Virus record (IMG/VR): IMGVR_UViG_3300025168_000730
Span: 1-22,567 of that record
Length of the DNA: 22,567 nt
Direction: 5' to 3' (one strand)
From: a virus
Numbering within the stretch: position 1 is the first letter of the stretch; each line of letters opens with the position of its first letter. The notes below the pieces were generated by a model. That model worked only from the letters and a program-made list of their open reading frames with translations. It was not told where the DNA came from and made no database searches. This document shows, piece by piece, positions 2,808-20,249 of the stretch. A program made the translations under genes and the position numbers.

Positions 2808-3137
2808 TTAGTGATGGTGGGAGTATTTTTTCTTTTTGTATTTCTTATACTTCTTGTACTTCTTGTACTTTTTCTTGTGCTTCTTTTTGAAATACTTCTT
2901 CTTATACTTCTTCTTGTATTTCTTATAGTGGCTATGCCCCTTGTACTTATAGAGGTGGCTATGATAGTGCTTACTGTGGGTGTGCCAGTAATAATCATAC
3001 ACAACATAGTACGAAGGGTGTACGACGTAATGATCTTCGTATTCATAGTGAGGGTTGTGGTGTTTTGTGGTAGGGTGGGCGAAAGCGCAGCCCGAGAAGA
3101 CCGATAAGAATAAAGATAGGGTGATGATTCTTTGCAT
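2808..3137 (-). CDS. secreted Lys/Tyr/His-rich low-complexity protein, unknown
   Basis: The 109-residue product begins with a clear export signal (MQRI, hydrophobic LSLFLSVFSG, then CAFA). Cleavage after AFA at residue 20 fits signal peptidase I; the FSGC at 14-17 is a poorer lipobox, so a lipoprotein is possible but less likely. Residues 21-70 are dominated by His and Tyr (for example HTHSKHYHSHLY). Residues 71-106 are almost only Lys and Tyr in KKYKKK-like repeats, and the protein ends HHH. The mature chain is therefore strongly basic and potentially metal-binding. GGAGG lies eight bases upstream of the ATG. Other frames over the repeat are open only because of its biased composition; this frame is the one with both a signal peptide and a good ribosome-binding site. 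I do not recognise the family. Confidence 0.75.
   Translation of the reverse strand: MQRIITLSLFLSVFSGCAFAHPTTKHHNPHYEYEDHYVVHPSYYVVYDYYWHTHSKHYHSHLYKYKGHSHYKKYKKKYKKKYFKKKHKKKYKKYKKYKKYKKKKYSHHH
2820..2927 (-). repeat. degenerate AAGAAGTA-type repeat coding for a Lys-Tyr tract
   Basis: On the minus strand this stretch is almost entirely AAG, AAA and TAT/TAC codons, giving repeats such as AAGAAGTAT and AAGTACAAG. It encodes residues 71-106 of the secreted protein. The irregular unit length suggests slippage growth constrained by protein composition. Confidence 0.7.
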
Positions 3138-5104: not shown

Positions 5105-5133
5105 ATTATAAAACAACTAATATTGAAAGTCAA
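5105..5133 (-). promoter_or_regulatory. near-consensus sigma70-type promoter for the gp32-like gene
   Basis: On the minus strand TTGACT (5133-5128) is followed by exactly 17 bases and then TATAAT (5110-5105), a full -10 match. The -35 box overlaps the last bases of the upstream tubulin-like gene. It shares TCTTGACTTTC with the promoter at 2773-2801. Confidence 0.85.
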
Positions 5134-5969
5134 GAACTTTTTTCATTTTGTATCTCTGATGTGCTTTCAATGAAATAAGCGTATTTGTCTGAGTATTGAG
5201 TAGAGAACACACCGTAGGATACTTTTACTTCCTTTTCTTGTGGTGTATCTTTTACTTGGCTCATTATCTTACTCATCAAAGTTTTATCAGTTTTTAGTTC
5301 CGTTTCAGGAATAGCGTAATAATAACGCTTTTCCTTTGCGTTGTCAAGAGAAAAAAACGGACTTTCTTCGCCTGTTTCTGGATTTAAGATGCCGAAAGTT
5401 GAAATGCGGCAGATGTTTTTTGGATCGGATAGGGTTCCAACAATTGGTTTGGTATGGTTAAAGATGTTTATCATATGGATTGTTGCGGCGATAACTTCGT
5501 TTAAGCTATCGTAATAGCCCATAATAGGTGCTCCGCCTAAGATTTTATCTACCTGCTGGTTATCAATGGCGTAGAACTGCTTGAAAACACCAGATCTAGT
5601 GTATTGTTGTAGAGCACCGAAGACTACGTTGGTTTGCAATCTCCTAGTATCCGATAGTGTATCTACGTCCGGGTGAACATAGAGGATGCTTATTTCGCCC
5701 TTGCCGTGTAACTGCTCCAACACACGCAGGGCAGCGCCAGAAATAATGCTAGATCCTGCCACAATAAAAAGTATATCGCCCTCGACTTCCCTTAGTTGGT
5801 CACCTATGTCTGGAAAACTGCTTTCATACTGTTCTGGGTGGGCGCATTCTGGCACACGAATAGTTGATCCCTCTTCGTGATCGATTGTGATTACCTTGTA
5901 TTGTGGATGCTTTGCAAAGGCTTTTGTTAATTTATAGCCAGCAGACCCTAGTCCAATTAATATATCCAT
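5130..5969 (-). CDS. putative tubulin/FtsZ-superfamily-like protein, divergent
   Basis: The 279-residue protein starts with a Rossmann-like strand and glycine loop, ILIGLGSAGYKL (residues 3-14), followed by VITIDHEE (26-33), as at the FtsZ/tubulin N-terminus. At 64-85 it has GDILFIVAGSSIISGAALRV, which lines up by eye with the FtsZ FVTAGMGGGTGTGAAPVV region, though the signature is degenerate (GSSIISGAA). Next come an ISILYVHP strand, a helix and FYAIDNQQV (132-140), where FtsZ has IVIPNDRL, then a long helix and KPIVGTLSD (174-182) where FtsZ has its catalytic T7 loop. The C-terminal third is less clear. The similarity is my own pattern match, not a search result; another Rossmann-type nucleotide-binding protein is possible. 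It overlaps the polymerase gene by 13 bases, so it belongs to the replication operon. Confidence 0.6.
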   Translation of the reverse strand: MDILIGLGSAGYKLTKAFAKHPQYKVITIDHEEGSTIRVPECAHPEQYESSFPDIGDQLREVEGDILFIVAGSSIISGAALRVLEQLHGKGEISILYVHPDVDTLSDTRRLQTNVVFGALQQYTRSGVFKQFYAIDNQQVDKILGGAPIMGYYDSLNEVIAATIHMINIFNHTKPIVGTLSDPKNICRISTFGILNPETGEESPFFSLDNAKEKRYYYAIPETELKTDKTLMSKIMSQVKDTPQEKEVKVSYGVFSTQYSDKYAYFIESTSEIQNEKSS

Positions 5970-12658: not shown

Positions 12659-14986
12659 TCAGGCAATTGGAAGTCTAGCGTTTCCAGTTAGTGTGTAGTT
12701 CTCATCAATATATTTAATTGTTGTCTCAGCAATTTTATTTCTCCCGGCACTGTCCAAGTAGAGTTCTACTTTAATTGGTTGTTCGTTTCCACTAGCAGAG
12801 GCTAGCGCCCTAGTCATTGCTCTTTCAAGCTGGGCTGGGTTTATTCCCATTTGTGACGCCATAGCAGCCATTTGTGCGTGGGGGTCCATACCTCCTGTCA
12901 TCGCCGGGGCTGCTGCGGGGCTGCTAGACTCAAAGGCACCGGCATCTCGCGCCAAAAGAGCCGCGTCTATTCCCAAACTTGCGGCTGTGCCTGCTCCGGG
13001 TACCATTCCGGCTGCGCCAGATGCCACTTCCATTCCTGCTCCAGTAAAGTCTCCATCAAAAATGCGTGATCCAGCAAACCCAAGAGATGCTAGCAATCCG
13101 ATAACTGGTATTTTTTTAATAAATGATTTGCCCAGACCTTTTCCTAAACCTTTTCCTAAGCCTTTTCCTGCACTCTTTTTAGAGAGTGCTAAACTTTCTT
13201 CAACCGCGCCGGGAGGCAGAGGTGGGGGCTTTGTACCAAACATTTTGCCCCTACCGAGAATGGCATCCCCGCCTGAGCCTCTAGATGACTGTCTTCCAAT
13301 ACCACCACCTAGCGCACCTAGCGTTGCTTTTCCAAGCTTTCGAGTCAATAGTGCTCCAGCGGTGGCGATACCCCCGCCGGCTAAAAGCGCTAGAAGCGTT
13401 GGCATCATTCCGTCTTCTGATGATGTTGCTTTAACGGCACCTTGCGATGCGATCTTCATTGCTTCTGCGAGATCATTAACGCCTGTTGTTAGGTTTTCAA
13501 AGACTGCTTGTTGATCTTTTAGTGAGTCAGTAGCTTGGCTAGACATTTCTCCTAGTGTTTTCTGTTCGCCTGTAAATATTGATGCCGCATCTGCTCCGTC
13601 GCCAAGGATAGCCCTAACTTTACCAACCTCAAGACCAAATGCGTTGGCAGCGAATCTCTGCTCAAAGAAGCCAAGTTGATTAAAGTCTTTGCCTGATTTT
13701 GCGAATGCCTCTCTTAATAAGTTTAGTTGCGCTTCAGGACCCTCTGCCGCTGCCATTGTCAAATCAAATGCATTAACAAACGATCCACCAAGAACAGTTC
13801 CTACATCTGCCACTGCTGTAGCAGAGCCCTCGAAGGTACTTAATCTATCAGACAGAGCGAATAATGTGCCACCCATATCCTCAACATTAATGCCAAGCTT
13901 TTTAGCCATTGTTGCGGTGTTCTCGAAAATCTTTGGTGCCCTAGCGCCAAACTCACCTAATCTTGGAGATAAAGCAGCAAAAGCATTAGCCATTTCATCT
14001 GGAGCAATTCCTATTGCTGCGCCTGTTTCAACCATCTCCCTAAGAGATTCATTTGCTTGGGGAACAGACATGCCGATTTCTGAAACTAAGAAGTTAAAAT
14101 TACCAGCGGTTGTTTGGGTGGAGACGCCCAAGTTTTTCAACATCGCCGTCGTGCCACCGATTTGCTTTTGAACATCTGGCTGTAGCATACTGAATGTTGA
14201 AAAGTCTCTGTATAGCCCTGTTACAGCCTCTGCTGAATCAGAGAACAAAACGCCCTGTTCTTTGTAAGCCCGAGATGTATCTTCGACGGTCTGTGTTAGT
14301 TCGTAATTTGCTCCGGTTGAGCCTAGCACCTGTGCTTGCAAGCGATTAAAGGAAACTGTGGTCTGGAGGATGTTGTTACCCATCATCCCTAGCAAACCAA
14401 CACCGAATCTGTCACCAAATGCCTTAGCAGCAGAAGAGCCAAACTCTTTCATGCCCTTGCTGCCACCCTTGATGGCTTTTGTAATATCCCTAAATGTGCT
14501 GCCTGTATCTCTGGAGATACCTAGAAGACCACCCATTGTGTCAACAAGACCTTCTCCCAGACTGTTCGCTGCTCTCATGGATTCAAGAGTTTTCTCACGC
14601 GCTTTATTTTCTTCTTCTATTAGCTTTAATTTCTTCTTTTGCCTTTCTACCTCTTTTCTATCGCCATCGGTGAGAGCCTTATCTAGTGCTCTTGCTGCTC
14701 TGATCCTTGCATCAGCAAGTTCTTTTATTATTTCACCCTTTCTTAATTCAGCAGCAATTCCTTTCTCTATTTGTTCGAGAGATTTCTTTCGCTCATCGTT
14801 ATCCTCTTCCAACAATATTTTATATTCTCTGGCGATCTGTTCGCGTCTTGCGAGAACACTTTGTTCTTTTTCGGCAGAAGACAAAGTATCCCCTGCCAAG
14901 CGAGCACGAGTTTTTTCAAACTCAACTTGTTTAGCAAGGAGATCATTTAATTTCTCAGCATTCAGTATGTCTTGTTCATCTGCCAT
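12659..14986 (-). CDS. tail tape measure protein
   Basis: The 775-residue protein has the usual tape measure layout. Residues 1-145 are a long charged coiled coil (Lys, Glu and Arg rich). A middle region of amphipathic helices follows, rich in Ala, Gly and Thr. Two hydrophobic segments appear: LLALLAGGGIATAGALL at about 525-541 and the IPVIGLLASLGFAG to AAGMVPGAGTAASLGI area after about 620, which may enter the host membrane during DNA injection. A Gly-Lys-Gly-Leu repeat precedes the second one. The family sets tail length and forms the channel (T4 counterpart gp29, 590 aa). At about 0.15 nm per residue it would suggest a tail of roughly 110-115 nm, which is an inference. It starts ten bases after the 109-aa gene. 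Confidence 0.9.
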   Translation of the reverse strand: MADEQDILNAEKLNDLLAKQVEFEKTRARLAGDTLSSAEKEQSVLARREQIAREYKILLEEDNDERKKSLEQIEKGIAAELRKGEIIKELADARIRAARALDKALTDGDRKEVERQKKKLKLIEEENKAREKTLESMRAANSLGEGLVDTMGGLLGISRDTGSTFRDITKAIKGGSKGMKEFGSSAAKAFGDRFGVGLLGMMGNNILQTTVSFNRLQAQVLGSTGANYELTQTVEDTSRAYKEQGVLFSDSAEAVTGLYRDFSTFSMLQPDVQKQIGGTTAMLKNLGVSTQTTAGNFNFLVSEIGMSVPQANESLREMVETGAAIGIAPDEMANAFAALSPRLGEFGARAPKIFENTATMAKKLGINVEDMGGTLFALSDRLSTFEGSATAVADVGTVLGGSFVNAFDLTMAAAEGPEAQLNLLREAFAKSGKDFNQLGFFEQRFAANAFGLEVGKVRAILGDGADAASIFTGEQKTLGEMSSQATDSLKDQQAVFENLTTGVNDLAEAMKIASQGAVKATSSEDGMMPTLLALLAGGGIATAGALLTRKLGKATLGALGGGIGRQSSRGSGGDAILGRGKMFGTKPPPLPPGAVEESLALSKKSAGKGLGKGLGKGLGKSFIKKIPVIGLLASLGFAGSRIFDGDFTGAGMEVASGAAGMVPGAGTAASLGIDAALLARDAGAFESSSPAAAPAMTGGMDPHAQMAAMASQMGINPAQLERAMTRALASASGNEQPIKVELYLDSAGRNKIAETTIKYIDENYTLTGNARLPIA
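13137..13172 (-). repeat. three tandem 12-bp units coding Gly-Lys-Gly-Leu in the tape measure
   Basis: The plus strand reads CCTTTTCCTAAA, CCTTTTCCTAAG, CCTTTTCCTGCA in tandem, differing only at the unit ends. On the coding strand they give repeated Gly-Lys-Gly-Leu just before the second hydrophobic segment of the tape measure. Confidence 0.9.
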
Positions 14987-14996
14987 AGTTTATTCT

Positions 14997-15326
14997 CTAT
15001 TTGAAAGGCCACTTGATGCCTGTTGATCTTTCAAAATTAGCAACTGCCCTTTCTAGTTTGTGTCTATTGCCTAGGGTTCTTGGGTCTGTAAGACCGTATT
15101 TTTCAAAAGCACTTAAGTATCTTCTTTCGTTTCCCAATGCTCTGGCGAAAGAGGATACCTGCTGTGATGTTCCTCTCACTTTACCTGAGATAGGATTACC
15201 GCCAAACATTTGACCTAGGATGTATTCCAGTTGAAAGCCTAACGCTCTCAAATATCCCTCGTCAATTGTCTCTGGGTTTAAGTTTATATCGTATTTGACT
15301 AATTCATTGTCATTTGAGTTGGACAT
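14997..15326 (-). CDS. small tail-cluster protein, unknown
   Basis: The 109-residue protein is helical and basic toward its end, with RSTGIKWPF at the C-terminus and GLTDPRTLGNRHKLERAVANFE before it. No signal peptide, membrane helix or catalytic motif is seen, and I do not recognise the family. It starts at ATG 15324-15326 behind a strong GGAGG, 36 bases after the terminator of the gp26-like unit, and ends ten bases before the tape measure start. It is therefore the first gene of a new transcription unit that carries the tape measure. A role in tape measure assembly is possible by position only. Confidence 0.75.
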   Translation of the reverse strand: MSNSNDNELVKYDINLNPETIDEGYLRALGFQLEYILGQMFGGNPISGKVRGTSQQVSSFARALGNERRYLSAFEKYGLTDPRTLGNRHKLERAVANFERSTGIKWPFK

Positions 15327-15401: not shown

Positions 15402-15671
15402 TTATCTGCCTTTCTTCATAGATTTCTCTATTTCTTGTCTTTCGTTATCGAATTGCTTTTGTAATCTTCTTAAAAACCATCTCCTTACTTGAATTGGTAA
15501 GTTGTATGATTCGAAGAAGCTCCAGCCACCATGGTGCTTGAGATTGAAGAGTTCCTCATAAACACTTTCGATATATTCATCACTTAGGCCAAAAAAAGTC
15601 AGAGGTAAACGGTACCTCCATTTCTTGCTCGTAGCTGCAAGAATAGCATGTAAACTGCTGGGCAAGGTCAA
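15402..15671 (-). CDS. C-terminal extension frame of the gp26-like gene, probably reached by frameshift
   Basis: This open frame overlaps the end of the gp26-like gene by 92 bases. Its first possible start is TTG at 15669-15671, with no ribosome-binding site at proper spacing that I can see, and the only ATG lies near its end, so independent initiation looks poor. The part beyond the overlap, 62 residues, reads GLSDEYIESVYEELF, then WSFFESYNLPIQVRRWFLRRL, the helix-Pro-Arg/Trp pattern seen in C-terminal extensions of frameshifted tail assembly chaperones and in gp51-like proteins. Joined at the seven-T run the product would be about 345-346 residues. Alternatives are a separate gp51-like gene with a weak start, or an extra T introduced by sequencing that breaks one longer gene. 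Confidence 0.65.
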   Translation of the reverse strand: MTLPSSLHAILAATSKKWRYRLPLTFFGLSDEYIESVYEELFNLKHHGGWSFFESYNLPIQVRRWFLRRLQKQFDNERQEIEKSMKKGR

Positions 15672-16440
15672 CAGATGGCATTAGCTTGGCGTATGAAGAT
15701 CGAACAAACCTAGCATCCATTGCTGGCATACTTTCCACATAAGAATTAATGTGTGACCGATCCGAATTACCATTAACGGAAACCATATAGCTCATCATGA
15801 CGTCTGTTAATCCAAGCTCAGGGAGACCATTTTTTTGTCTCATCTTGTTTGTTTTGGCAATGCTTTCCTCATCATAGCCAGTAGATGGCTTGATTTCAAC
15901 GGATGCTTTGGTTTTCGGGGCGCTTATTAAAAACGTTCCATTATTTGTTTGCTCATATTCTAAGCCAGAAATCTCCGGTGTTGTGATAGCACAAGATTCG
16001 ATTAAGTCAAAGGAGAAATCATTTACATCACCACAAGAGGGGCAAGCTACCTTTGTCTCATACTCTGACCCGTAGCCCGTAATTCTCGTAGCAACAAGAA
16101 CTGCGCTCTTATCTCCGCCTAAAAGTGAGGAAACTGTGATATTCTTATCGATAATGACACTCTCTAATAACTTATCCAGAACAATGCCTTTCTGGATATA
16201 TGATTTATTAACCAAGATGTCCTCATCCCTAGCGGTCATATGCCTAATTTCTAATGTTTCTTTGTTATGGAGAGGATGCGACTCTGGGTAGAACTTACCC
16301 TTGGAAGGTAAATCGACAAGCTCAGTCGGTGCAACAAACTGCATTGGTGTTTGTTGTTGTTGGTTTGAAACAACAGCACCTGTCGCATCGGATCCGCTAT
16401 TGCTAGCCCCGAGTCGATCTGAATTGTTTCTGGTTGACAT
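15580..16440 (-). CDS. gp26: gp26-like baseplate hub assembly / tail assembly protein
   Basis: The 286-residue protein has the conserved N-terminal motif of the T4 gp26 family, LVDLPSKGKFYPESHPL (residues 41-57) followed by IRHMTARDEDIL (65-76). Two Cys pairs, CPSC at 133-136 and CYSC at 265-268, can form a zinc ribbon split across the protein. The first 35 residues are Ser/Asn/Gln rich and probably disordered. It lies between the tube gene and the tape measure region, where tail assembly chaperones are usual. The ATG at 16438-16440 has GAGG upstream and its own promoter. The chain ends SDFFWPK three codons after a TTT TTT T run where a second frame takes over. gp26 assists hub assembly in T4; whether it acts as tape measure chaperone here is inference. 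Confidence 0.8.
   Translation of the reverse strand: MSTRNNSDRLGASNSGSDATGAVVSNQQQQTPMQFVAPTELVDLPSKGKFYPESHPLHNKETLEIRHMTARDEDILVNKSYIQKGIVLDKLLESVIIDKNITVSSLLGGDKSAVLVATRITGYGSEYETKVACPSCGDVNDFSFDLIESCAITTPEISGLEYEQTNNGTFLISAPKTKASVEIKPSTGYDEESIAKTNKMRQKNGLPELGLTDVMMSYMVSVNGNSDRSHINSYVESMPAMDARFVRSSYAKLMPSVDLAQQFTCYSCSYEQEMEVPFTSDFFWPK
15591..15597 (-). promoter_or_regulatory. putative +1 or -2 ribosomal frameshift site (seven T)
   Basis: On the minus strand the gp26-like frame reads GAC TTT TTT TGG and the extension frame reads ACT TTT TTT GGC. Moving between them requires skipping one base or slipping back two, with Phe codons able to re-pair in either case. A GGAGGT at 15619-15614 lies 16 bases upstream and could act as an internal stimulator. 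The zero-frame stop follows at 15582-15580. Confidence 0.5.
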
Positions 16441-16497: not shown

Positions 16498-17112
16498 TTA
16501 TACGGCATTATTCTTAAGAGAGTTATAGCCATCGTTAATAGACTTTCCTTGAGTTGTCTTAACTGAACCGGCTTGGATTGGCAGTTTTGCTCCACCAAGT
16601 GGGATACTATTGTAGAGTGCATAGTCATAGCGAAGTTCAATATCCATTGTAAGCATATCATCGGAAGCATATTCAAAGTCTCCCATGCCAACATTCTTAA
16701 CCCAAGCATTCTTTAGGGTCCAGACTTCAACATCTTTTCCTTCAGCATTTTTTGCTTTGATCTTAACTTCTCCTAGAACCTCAACAGCTTTTTGTTTTGA
16801 GATGGATTCGTATGCCATTGGGCTTGGGACTTGATAACCACAGGCTCCAAGAATACCCATAAGATAGGCAGTAGCATCAGGATTAATTGGATCAACAGTT
16901 GTAAAGGAAACAGTCTGCCATTCAACTTTACCGGGATAGTAAAATTTGTGATTGAAGAACGTATGCTCTGACTCAGTTACATTAAAGCTAGGTCTATCGA
17001 CTCTAGTAATTACCCAAGAGTCAATCCCAGCGAGATTGAGAATAAATCTATATTTTCTTTTTGGTTCGCTGGTGATGTTAGCCCAAAATTTAGATCCGAA
17101 GTTGTCTGCCAT
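16498..17112 (-). CDS. gp19: tail tube protein (gp19-like)
   Basis: The 204-residue protein matches T4-type tail tube subunits. It has KYRFILNLAGIDSWVITRVDRPSF near the N-terminus, the YYPGKVEWQTVSFTTVDP segment with the conserved W-x2-[VI]-x-[FV] pattern, and a C-terminal WTLKNAWVKNVGMGDFEYASDDMLTMDIELRYDYA, typical of the beta-barrel that stacks into hexameric rings. T4 gp19 is 163 residues, so this is modestly longer, mostly through extra residues after 180. It forms the inner tube through which DNA passes. It lies 68 bases after the sheath gene, the same order as in T4, with AAGGA upstream of the ATG. Confidence 0.92.
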   Translation of the reverse strand: MADNFGSKFWANITSEPKRKYRFILNLAGIDSWVITRVDRPSFNVTESEHTFFNHKFYYPGKVEWQTVSFTTVDPINPDATAYLMGILGACGYQVPSPMAYESISKQKAVEVLGEVKIKAKNAEGKDVEVWTLKNAWVKNVGMGDFEYASDDMLTMDIELRYDYALYNSIPLGGAKLPIQAGSVKTTQGKSINDGYNSLKNNAV

Positions 17113-17180: not shown

Positions 17181-20100
17181 TTAATCCTCAAAACCTGCAC
17201 CAGAGTTTGTGATTACAAAATCAATAGCGAAGAACTCGACAGCCTTAGTTGGCTTTAAGAAGATCTTTGCGTAGATTGTATTTCTATCAATCAAGTCTGG
17301 CGTAGTTGTTGTCTCATCCAAGACGACTTTGAAATCATCCAACCCAAAGTTGTTCTTAATATTGTCCAAGAATGGAGCAACCTGACCTGTAAATCTAGAC
17401 CAAGTTTGTTCAACATTCTGATCAAATAACAAGTTTGATGCAATTCTTGAGATTTCTTTCTTTACAAAGATCATCAACCTTCTAACGTTGATTCTATCCA
17501 ACGCAGATGGGGTGATTTGTAGAGTCTTCTGTCCGAAGATTACAATGCCCTCGTTTGGAAATGATGCGATAGGGTTGAGGTTTCTTTCGTAGAGATAATC
17601 TCTTTCGGCAGAAGTTAGACGGCTTCTAACGTTGGTCACTGGAATACCAGCGGCACCCTCTGTCAAGCCCCCTCTATTGAAGCCTGCTGGAGCGAACCAA
17701 AGCGCTGCTTTGTTCTCTGCAAAAGACATAGCTCCGAATGCTGCAATTGAAGGAGGTGCCCAAAGTTGGCGACCCGTGATTGTGTCAGAAATTCTAACCC
17801 AAGGGTAATATGCCGCACCATAACTTGTGTTAAGATTTCTAGCATCCAAGTTATCTGCCACCTCTTTAACGTGGCGTGAAACTCCACCTAATCCAGTGCC
17901 GGTTGTAATTCTCTGCTGCTCGGACTCATTGTTCTCAGAAGCTGGTATGTACCCGCCGCGAGGATCGATCAGAGCCAAGGCATCTCCACGAGATTCACAA
18001 GTCTGAAGCATATGGGTTGTTAGCCCTTCGTTTGTGATACCGGGAGCAGTCAAGATATTAGCTTCAACAAACTCTGGATCTGCGAACATATCGATTGCTT
18101 TCTTCACAGAATAGAACATAGAGTACGTTGTTGGGGCTGCGGTAGCGTGTGTCAAAGCTCTAGCGGCATTGAAAGGTTCTTTTTCTGTAATATCAAATCC
18201 ATCGAAACCACCGTACATTGGGGCTGTGAATCTGTCATATCCTTTATCAAGAACTGATTTATAAGAGCCAGTTCTAGCCGAAATCGAGTCACCTGTAGCT
18301 CTAGATCCTGAATCGTAATATACTTGAGGAATAGTTCCGCCCGGTGCCATTACCAAATCATCCAAGCTGAAGTACCAAGATGTCTTGGTTCCTGTATCTG
18401 GAGATCCACTGAACTTATTTGCCACAGGAAGTGGGTAAAGGAGGTCGTATGTGCCCTCATCGAAGGTTGAACCTCCCGCTGTTCTTGTGAACTGTGCTCC
18501 AAAGTAAGCTTCTGTCTCATCGGAAAGATCTCCAGCAGAAGCGCTCCTTCTAAGTGGTACTGTTGGAAAGTTCACTGAGCCGGTGAATGGGAATTTACCC
18601 GCTACATCTCCCAGTTCGGCGTCAACACCAATTCTTACTTCATCAGATAACGCAACGAAACCAACGCTGCGAATGTGTAATGGAATTTGAAGACCAGCCT
18701 CTACACACGCTTTCAATCCGCCAGCGGGAGCGATGCTTCCTGTGCCTTGGTTAGCAGCATTGTAGTCGGAGGAACCAGAAATCTGGAAGCTGGTATATCC
18801 GATTGGTCCTTCGACACCGAATGGAATAAGCTCTGGATCTGCCTGTGCTTGGTCAATTGCATTTGCAACTTCGACACGAACGATACTTGAACGATTTGGA
18901 TAACTTCCGTATTCGAACAAACGACGTGCGTTAGTATCCCACTGGTGGTATCTATCACCAATTTGCTTGGAGATGTAATTCGCTGAGTTTGGGTCTAAAC
19001 TAAGATTAGTAAACTTCTCAACGTATTTTTTTGCATTGTCAAGATCTTTAATATCGCGGATTGCAATGCTGAAAGATCCGTAAGGGGTGTTATCATTTTT
19101 GCTGTATTTGATATCTTCAACAGAAATCTTGTAGTTTCTGTGAATTTCTTGACCAGATGTTAATCCGTGGAATTTAAACAATCTTGTGACTGTTGCAAGG
19201 TTCTCTGGATTGAATGGCGGGTCGAGTGTGTTCCCGGCTAGTTCGTGGGTTCCTGCCGTGTTTCTCAAATCCTGCGAGAAAAACCAACCAGACTGCGCTG
19301 CTTGTGTAGCAAATTTGAAATTGCTACCATCAGTAACATCCATTCCGGCTCTTCCCAACCTAAGTATAACCCCATATGAGTTGGAGCCTGTGATAGTATC
19401 AGCTACTGCTCTTTCATAAGTTTGACCAAGGAAGAAATTCTTCTTTTTAGCCGAGGTGGTATCAACAAGGGCACTATTTGTCAAAGTTGGATTAGTGTTG
19501 AGAACCTTTCTGATGTAATTAGAATCAGTTCTGGAAAAGCTGATTGTCGTTTCTTCCGTTAGGGTTCCGGCTCCATCTGTTATATCGTATGCGCCGATGG
19601 TGTAAGTATACTTGCCAACTGAATTGATCAAAGCACTAGATCCCGTTGTGGATCCCATGTTTTGATTATCGAATTCTTTCGTCGTATCAAATCCACGAAT
19701 TGTACCCGACAGCGTAAGCATCGAGCCGGTTGTGTAAAGAACTGCTGCCAATGTACCCGTTGTTGACTTTTCATCCCCGCCGTCTACTACCTGAACGGCT
19801 CCAGAGTTGAACAAGAACAAACCATAAGCCCCGCCACCCATTTGATCTTGCGCCAAGGCTGGAGAAGATGGTCCGGGGAATGCTAAATTCCAACCGGCTT
19901 TTCCGTCCTGTGTGTCAGCGTTGTCTGGATGCTGGTCGCCAAGTAGTCTTATGAATGTCAAAGGAGTGCTATTCTTAAGCCATGCTTGAGCGGCGTAGGC
20001 AGCAAATGTCGGTGCCGTAGGTATTCCTCCACGCCAAAGGTCGCTTTTCTCTTCGCCCCCTACTGGATCTCCAAAGATTGTTACGAACTCTGAGAAGGAA

Positions 20101-20249
20101 TCAACTCTAACAGGTTGGAAAGCGGGTCCTCTTCTAGTACGCCCAATAACCAATGGTCCAATTGCCACTGGTGACTTGGGGACTTGGGAGTTGTCGATCT
20201 CTTCGATGAACACTCCGGGGGAAACAAATTTGAAATCTTTTGCCGACAT
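17181..20249 (-). CDS. gp18: tail sheath protein (gp18-like), enlarged
   Basis: The N-terminus SPGVFIEEIDNSQVPKSPVA to GPLVIGRTRRGPAFQPV is the typical start of contractile sheath proteins. The last 170 residues carry the conserved sheath core: LTSAERDYLYERNLNPIASF, IVIFGQKTLQITPSALDRINVRRL and AKIFLKPTKAVEFFAIDF. At 1022 residues it is far longer than T4 gp18 (659). The extra length lies in the central region, about residues 130-700, rich in Gly, Ser and Thr and likely surface-exposed beta domains. The sheath surrounds the tube and contracts on infection. AAGGAG lies eight bases before the ATG at 20247-20249. It is preceded by an 84-base gap that should hold its promoter. Confidence 0.93.
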   Translation of the reverse strand: MSAKDFKFVSPGVFIEEIDNSQVPKSPVAIGPLVIGRTRRGPAFQPVRVDSFSEFVTIFGDPVGGEEKSDLWRGGIPTAPTFAAYAAQAWLKNSTPLTFIRLLGDQHPDNADTQDGKAGWNLAFPGPSSPALAQDQMGGGAYGLFLFNSGAVQVVDGGDEKSTTGTLAAVLYTTGSMLTLSGTIRGFDTTKEFDNQNMGSTTGSSALINSVGKYTYTIGAYDITDGAGTLTEETTISFSRTDSNYIRKVLNTNPTLTNSALVDTTSAKKKNFFLGQTYERAVADTITGSNSYGVILRLGRAGMDVTDGSNFKFATQAAQSGWFFSQDLRNTAGTHELAGNTLDPPFNPENLATVTRLFKFHGLTSGQEIHRNYKISVEDIKYSKNDNTPYGSFSIAIRDIKDLDNAKKYVEKFTNLSLDPNSANYISKQIGDRYHQWDTNARRLFEYGSYPNRSSIVRVEVANAIDQAQADPELIPFGVEGPIGYTSFQISGSSDYNAANQGTGSIAPAGGLKACVEAGLQIPLHIRSVGFVALSDEVRIGVDAELGDVAGKFPFTGSVNFPTVPLRRSASAGDLSDETEAYFGAQFTRTAGGSTFDEGTYDLLYPLPVANKFSGSPDTGTKTSWYFSLDDLVMAPGGTIPQVYYDSGSRATGDSISARTGSYKSVLDKGYDRFTAPMYGGFDGFDITEKEPFNAARALTHATAAPTTYSMFYSVKKAIDMFADPEFVEANILTAPGITNEGLTTHMLQTCESRGDALALIDPRGGYIPASENNESEQQRITTGTGLGGVSRHVKEVADNLDARNLNTSYGAAYYPWVRISDTITGRQLWAPPSIAAFGAMSFAENKAALWFAPAGFNRGGLTEGAAGIPVTNVRSRLTSAERDYLYERNLNPIASFPNEGIVIFGQKTLQITPSALDRINVRRLMIFVKKEISRIASNLLFDQNVEQTWSRFTGQVAPFLDNIKNNFGLDDFKVVLDETTTTPDLIDRNTIYAKIFLKPTKAVEFFAIDFVITNSGAGFED

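Follow-up and report, generated by a model that had tools for sequence, protein, structure and literature searches.

The window, by which we mean the whole 22,567-nt stretch analysed (positions 1 to 22,567 of IMG/VR record IMGVR_UViG_3300025168_000730), carries on its minus strand a set of tail genes among which two overlapping reading frames meet at a run of seven T. The features that matter for the analysis are the following.

17181-20249, minus strand: tail sheath gene, 1022 aa (PF17482 and PF04984; phrog_23, E=1e-64)
16498-17112, minus strand: upstream gene, tail tube protein, gp19-like (PF06841, E=6.8e-7; phrog_4542, E=1.2e-17)
15580-16440, minus strand: gp26-like ORF, candidate tail assembly chaperone TAC-N, 286 aa, zero frame, ATG start, TGA stop at 15582-15580
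15614-15619, minus strand: GGAGGT, Shine-Dalgarno-like, 16 nt 5' of the T run
15591-15597, minus strand: seven-T run of the putative shift site GAC TTT TTT TGG
15402-15590, minus strand: extension in the +1 frame, candidate TAC-C, 62 codons (GLSDEY...KKGR) and a stop
14997-15326, minus strand: 109-aa ORF between the chaperone and tape measure genes, no family match
12659-14986, minus strand: probable tape measure protein, 775 aa, assigned by position and length (PF20155 TMP_3, E=4.5e-4, below the cut-off)

The sheath gene puts this locus inside a contractile-tail module, and the gp26-like gene lies between the genes for the tail tube and the tape measure, the latter recognised by its position and a weak family match. 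There are no tRNA genes in the window, and a nucleotide search with the locus found no match among isolate phages. Two other minus-strand ORFs in the window were noted: one of 279 aa (5133-5969), beginning MDILIGLGSAGYKLTKAFAKHP and lying among replication genes, had no Pfam match at 0.001, and one of 109 aa (2808-3137) is of low complexity, rich in His, Lys and Tyr, and has a possible signal peptide.

The gp26-like ORF matches PF12322 (E=9.6e-13, over the cut-off) and phrog_150, a baseplate hub family (E=3.3e-13). Its product and the extension were folded separately, with an alignment for TAC-N made up of the window and IMG/VR loci only, and the resulting AF2 model of TAC-N has a pLDDT of 88. 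Foldseek returned nothing significant for this model; the top three structures in a second look were 3klu (YqbN, Z 6.2), 3fgx (Z 6.1) and 2ob9, the HK97 tail assembly chaperone (Z 5.7, with an rmsd of 3.1 over 75 residues). The likeness of the predicted fold to solved tail assembly chaperones is suggestive only.

The gp26-like ORF ends GAC TTT TTT TGG CCT AAG TGA, and its zero-frame stop comes three codons (TGG CCT AAG) past the divergence of the two frames at the T run, as the original prediction had read it. The coordinates, the seven-T run, the 92-base overlap of the frames and the GGAGGT 16 nt upstream that it had reported all proved correct when the sequence was re-read. The 92 nt are counted from the first TTG of the extension frame, which is open to 15402 and overlaps the gp26-like ORF by 98 nt when the whole open frame is taken. 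We also agree that this frame has no good start; its sole candidates are two TTG codons, 74 and 68 nt ahead of the run.

The extension is under coding constraint. Among 57 homologues, the conserved residues (GL..Y..VYE.FF.LK..GGWSF.EAYNLP..R.WF) start exactly at the shift, with FFGL, and synonymous sites vary as codon usage predicts (obs/exp about 1). The fold predicted for the extension consists of three helices (pLDDT 92), and Foldseek, run on the extension by itself, found nothing matching in the PDB. DUF6760 is matched by 45 of the 57 homologues and phrog_634 by eight, with a best E of 1.4e-3.

Comparison with homologues, which the original prediction had proposed as a check, shows that both frames and the shift site are conserved. 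In a first set of 83 further IMG/VR relatives whose junction could be read (37-86% identical; 84 loci with the window), the extension is in the +1 frame in 83/83 and in the -1 frame in none, which bears out the earlier statement that the required shift is not -1. The window not counted, their sites are TTT TTT TGG (76 loci), TTT CTT TGG (four) and TTC TTT TGG (three: L047, L050 and L095). A second, more distant group (n=79), with Microcystis phage Mel-JY01 and Flavobacterium phage immuto among its members, combines a +1 extension with a UUU_U or CUU_U site in 78/79; here TTT TTT TGG, CTT TTT TGG, TTT CTT TGG, TTT TTT TAC and TTT TTT TTC are found, and the +1 site is kept even with TAC or TTC instead of TGG as the A-site codon. 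Counted over the two groups, 162/162 loci have UUU or CUU in the P site at the junction with U as the next base, whereas the looser pattern TTT_Y or CTT_T occurs in 6% of 6-codon windows drawn at random from these genes; the loci being related, these counts are non-independent trials. Around Bacillus phage SP-15 there is a third +1 group; UUU_C is its usual site, and a few members have others, CCC_A for instance. L155, the sole member of the second group without UUU_U (TTC TTC TGG), has its extension in another frame, a deviation that may reflect either a sequence error or a change of site.

At the junction itself, synonymous variation drops sharply. The P-site Phe codon is TTT in 80 of 80 cases, set against 587 TTT to 205 TTC gene-wide (TTC = 26%), and the Asp codon before the run is GAC in 51 and GAT in two, with a ratio of 589:1041 in the rest of the genes. 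Both GAT cases carry TTC next. The heptamer T_TTT_TTT, which would permit -1 slippage, is absent throughout the first set and occurs in 2/78 of the second group; because of the bias towards GAC and the TTC that accompanies both GAT codons, we take it to be avoided. The canonical mark of tail assembly chaperone genes, an X_XXY_YYZ heptamer leading into the -1 frame, is not found here, the extension lying in the +1 frame. The geometry is conserved across relatives, and the arrangement is therefore the product of neither chance nor error.

Judged by its codons, the GGAGGT is conserved beyond coding need within the window's own group, where the Glu codon that it contains is GAG in 54 loci and GAA in two (782:1046 gene-wide); it is missing in 32 of the 84 loci. 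No conserved RNA structure was found downstream of the junction in 83 sequences (empty alifold consensus, mean z about -0.5).

We consider it very probable that a programmed +1 ribosomal frameshift at this site yields a pair of tail assembly chaperones, TAC-N and a minor fused TAC-NC. Most ribosomes would stop at the TGA and produce the 286-aa TAC-N of the gp26 family. A minority, with tRNA-Phe on UUU in the P site (15594-15592) and UGG waiting in the A site, would slip one base forward, re-pair on the overlapping UUU (15593-15591) and continue with GGC; in some relatives it would be tRNA-Leu that slips from CUU to UUU. The slipped ribosomes would read the three-helix TAC-C and complete a TAC-NC of 345 aa. 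By analogy with lambda gpG/gpGT, the tape measure protein would be coated by many copies of TAC-N and a few of TAC-NC, which would bring in the subunits of the tail tube. The occurrence of the slip, its rate and direction in cells, and the chaperone role are what we infer from the comparison. The earlier proposal of a 286-aa protein with a minor fusion of 345 aa (+1) or 346 aa (-2) is thereby supported as a reading, the fusion itself being putative.

Several points speak against +1: the A site holds a sense codon, UGG, and no stop; the GGAGGT, absent from 32 of the 84 loci, has a 16-nt spacing better suited to backward than to forward slippage; and L155 no longer has the site. In the +1 site of E. 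coli prfB (RF2), CUU_UGA, a stop codon occupies the A site and the Shine-Dalgarno sequence lies about 3 nt before the shift codon. The window resembles prfB in its U-rich P-site codon followed by U, and CUU_U is a natural variant among its relatives, whereas its A-site codon and the distance of its GGAGGT from the run are not of the prfB type. The spacing of the GGAGGT matches the pattern of neither prfB (+1) nor dnaX (-1), and this element is the main misfit to the +1 reading.

An upstream Shine-Dalgarno-like element at long spacing favours backward movement, and with it a Mu-like programmed -2 shift at the same run, with UUU moving back to bases 2-4 and a product of 346 aa containing an extra Phe, although we regard this as improbable. 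Re-pairing after such a shift would be perfect on the seven-T run of the window and 76 of the 83 relatives. However, in the three TTC TTT TGG loci it would put tRNA-Phe on UCU, and the SP-15-type site TTC TTT CGT has the same problem, whereas +1 there gives UUC; moreover, CUU_U is the +1 site of prfB. Since re-pairing of UUU or CUU on UUU would be possible for every variant in the two main groups, +1 fits better than -2. The original prediction had allowed either direction; its exclusion of -1 holds, and between the two that it left the homologues favour +1.

We judge it very unlikely that translation of the extension, as a gene of its own, begins within the gp26-like gene, from TTG or GTG or by reinitiation. 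Precedents exist in T4 gene 51, in jumbo phage LR756511, where the gene has its own ATG, and in injection-system loci, and several isolates are annotated with separate or overlapping small ORFs. Yet the comparison reveals no usable start: in 15 of the 84 loci the extension lacks any start codon, the position of the start is unconserved, and the +1 frame often opens, after a stop codon, just 2-8 nt before the run, with the conserved residues beginning precisely at the shift. The window's relatives carry no separate extension gene with a conserved start, an arrangement that had been named beforehand as telling against a frameshift. Still less probable is transcriptional slippage, in which reiterative copying on the T/A run would alter the number of U in the mRNA; most loci do have a seven-T homopolymer, but in the first set the run is interrupted in seven relatives (TTTCTTTGG, TTCTTTTGG) without loss of phase, and the SP-15 group has TTTTTTC or TTCTTTC, and these interrupted runs are therefore evidence against polymerase slippage. 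There is a negligible chance that the arrangement stems from gene decay or from faulty sequencing or assembly, with a true run of six T and one continuous gene, the other outcome that the original prediction had named as refuting it. Homopolymers are error-prone, but more than 160 contigs and isolate genomes, Mel-JY01 and immuto among them, have the same phase, independent contigs carrying seven T or variants that are not homopolymers, and this conservation refutes it.

The preferred +1 reading sets the window's group apart from other T4-like phages. In the Kyanoviridae (S-PM2, P-SSM2), Sinorhizobium phage phiM12 and Delftia phage phiW-14, the homologous extension has a T_TTT_TTC or T_TTT_TTT junction and lies in the -1 frame, whereas the window's group would shift +1 at UUU_U; the two share the PF12322 family and gene position, and their extensions are related by profile (hhalign E=2e-7). 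In T4, both gp26 and gp51 are listed as hub assembly chaperones (PMC3004832). Their genes are separate and on opposite strands, gp51 matching PF12322 with E=1.8e-53, so that the two forms come from separate genes with no frameshift, in contrast to the one locus of the window's group. The -1 clade extension matches the gp51 C-terminus (E=4e-5), and a direct comparison of the window's extension with T4 gp51 gave no match; the link of the +1 extension to gp51 would thus be indirect, running through the -1 clade. Lambda gpG/gpGT and their kin, where a single locus directly ahead of the tape measure gene yields a short and a long chaperone through a -1 shift (PMC5009743), are alike in the paired forms and the position, with no sequence relation shown. 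The original prediction of a tail-chaperone-type extension before the tape measure gene stands, refined in that its family by sequence is T4 gp26/gp51 and not lambda G/GT.

We built a tree of 90 TAC-N sequences, 87 rows of which were labelled by direction. It contains a well-supported split, with the -1 sequences and T4 opposite the +1 sequences, the exceptions being Atu_ph07, on a long branch, and L155. Direction needs two changes over the 87 labelled rows, and the clustering of each direction was equalled in 0 of 500 label shuffles. A wider interpretation, tentative and put forward as a whole, is that there was an ancient split in one chaperone family between a -1 clade using U_UUU_UUC, from which T4 escaped to separate genes, and a +1 clade using UUU_U or CUU_U; that selection at the same few bases would act against the opposite direction; and that the +1 element would act on a sense codon with a distant Shine-Dalgarno-like sequence, unlike known +1 signals.

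In most phages with long tails, it is frameshifted chaperones that set up tail length assembly; the T4-like phages had long been counted as an exception. Vladimirov, Gautam and Davidson reportedly described tail assembly chaperones made by frameshifting in T4-like groups in 2022, with separate genes in T4, so this kind of system is already known. Two papers citing that study (PMC10885494, PMC12846349) speak of frameshift-made TAC-NC in several T4-like groups. As for direction, +1 frameshifting in tail genes has been described in the haloarchaeal myovirus HSTV-2 and in Listeria phages PSA, A118 and A500 (PMC5009743); in the Listeria phages the site is CCC_UGA and lies in the gene for the major tail protein, unlike the UUU_U chaperone site of the window. 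We found no account of a deep section of the T4-like chaperone family in which +1 is the rule, the 2022 paper being represented here by the papers that cite it, and the +1 direction, its depth and the avoidance of T before the site look new. If a large uncultivated T4-like group, of hundreds of contigs, shifts forward where related families, at nearly identical bases, shift backward, the two together would provide a natural comparison of what sends ribosomes +1 or -1.

The reading would also correct annotation, since in sequenced isolates the extension stands as a hypothetical gene of its own, often cut short. It is annotated as a separate hypothetical protein in, for example, L010:3734-3970, L012:3833-3943 and L016:3809-3928, and its annotation is shortened to 36-39 aa in immuto and SP-15.

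DUF6760 was also found over the cut-off in 18 of 296 genomes of a sampled phylum, that of an Actinomycetes MAG; in the loci read (L325:1052-1656, L327:914-1656, L310:431-1647), a small separate ORF carrying it adjoins tube-like genes and a Zn-ribbon ORF. The ORF upstream of the injection-system DUF6760 had no Pfam match. We considered these loci as a further case of frameshifting and set them aside, those read showing a separate small ORF and no evidence of a frameshift. In extracellular contractile injection systems, DUF6760 may serve as the C-domain of the chaperone.
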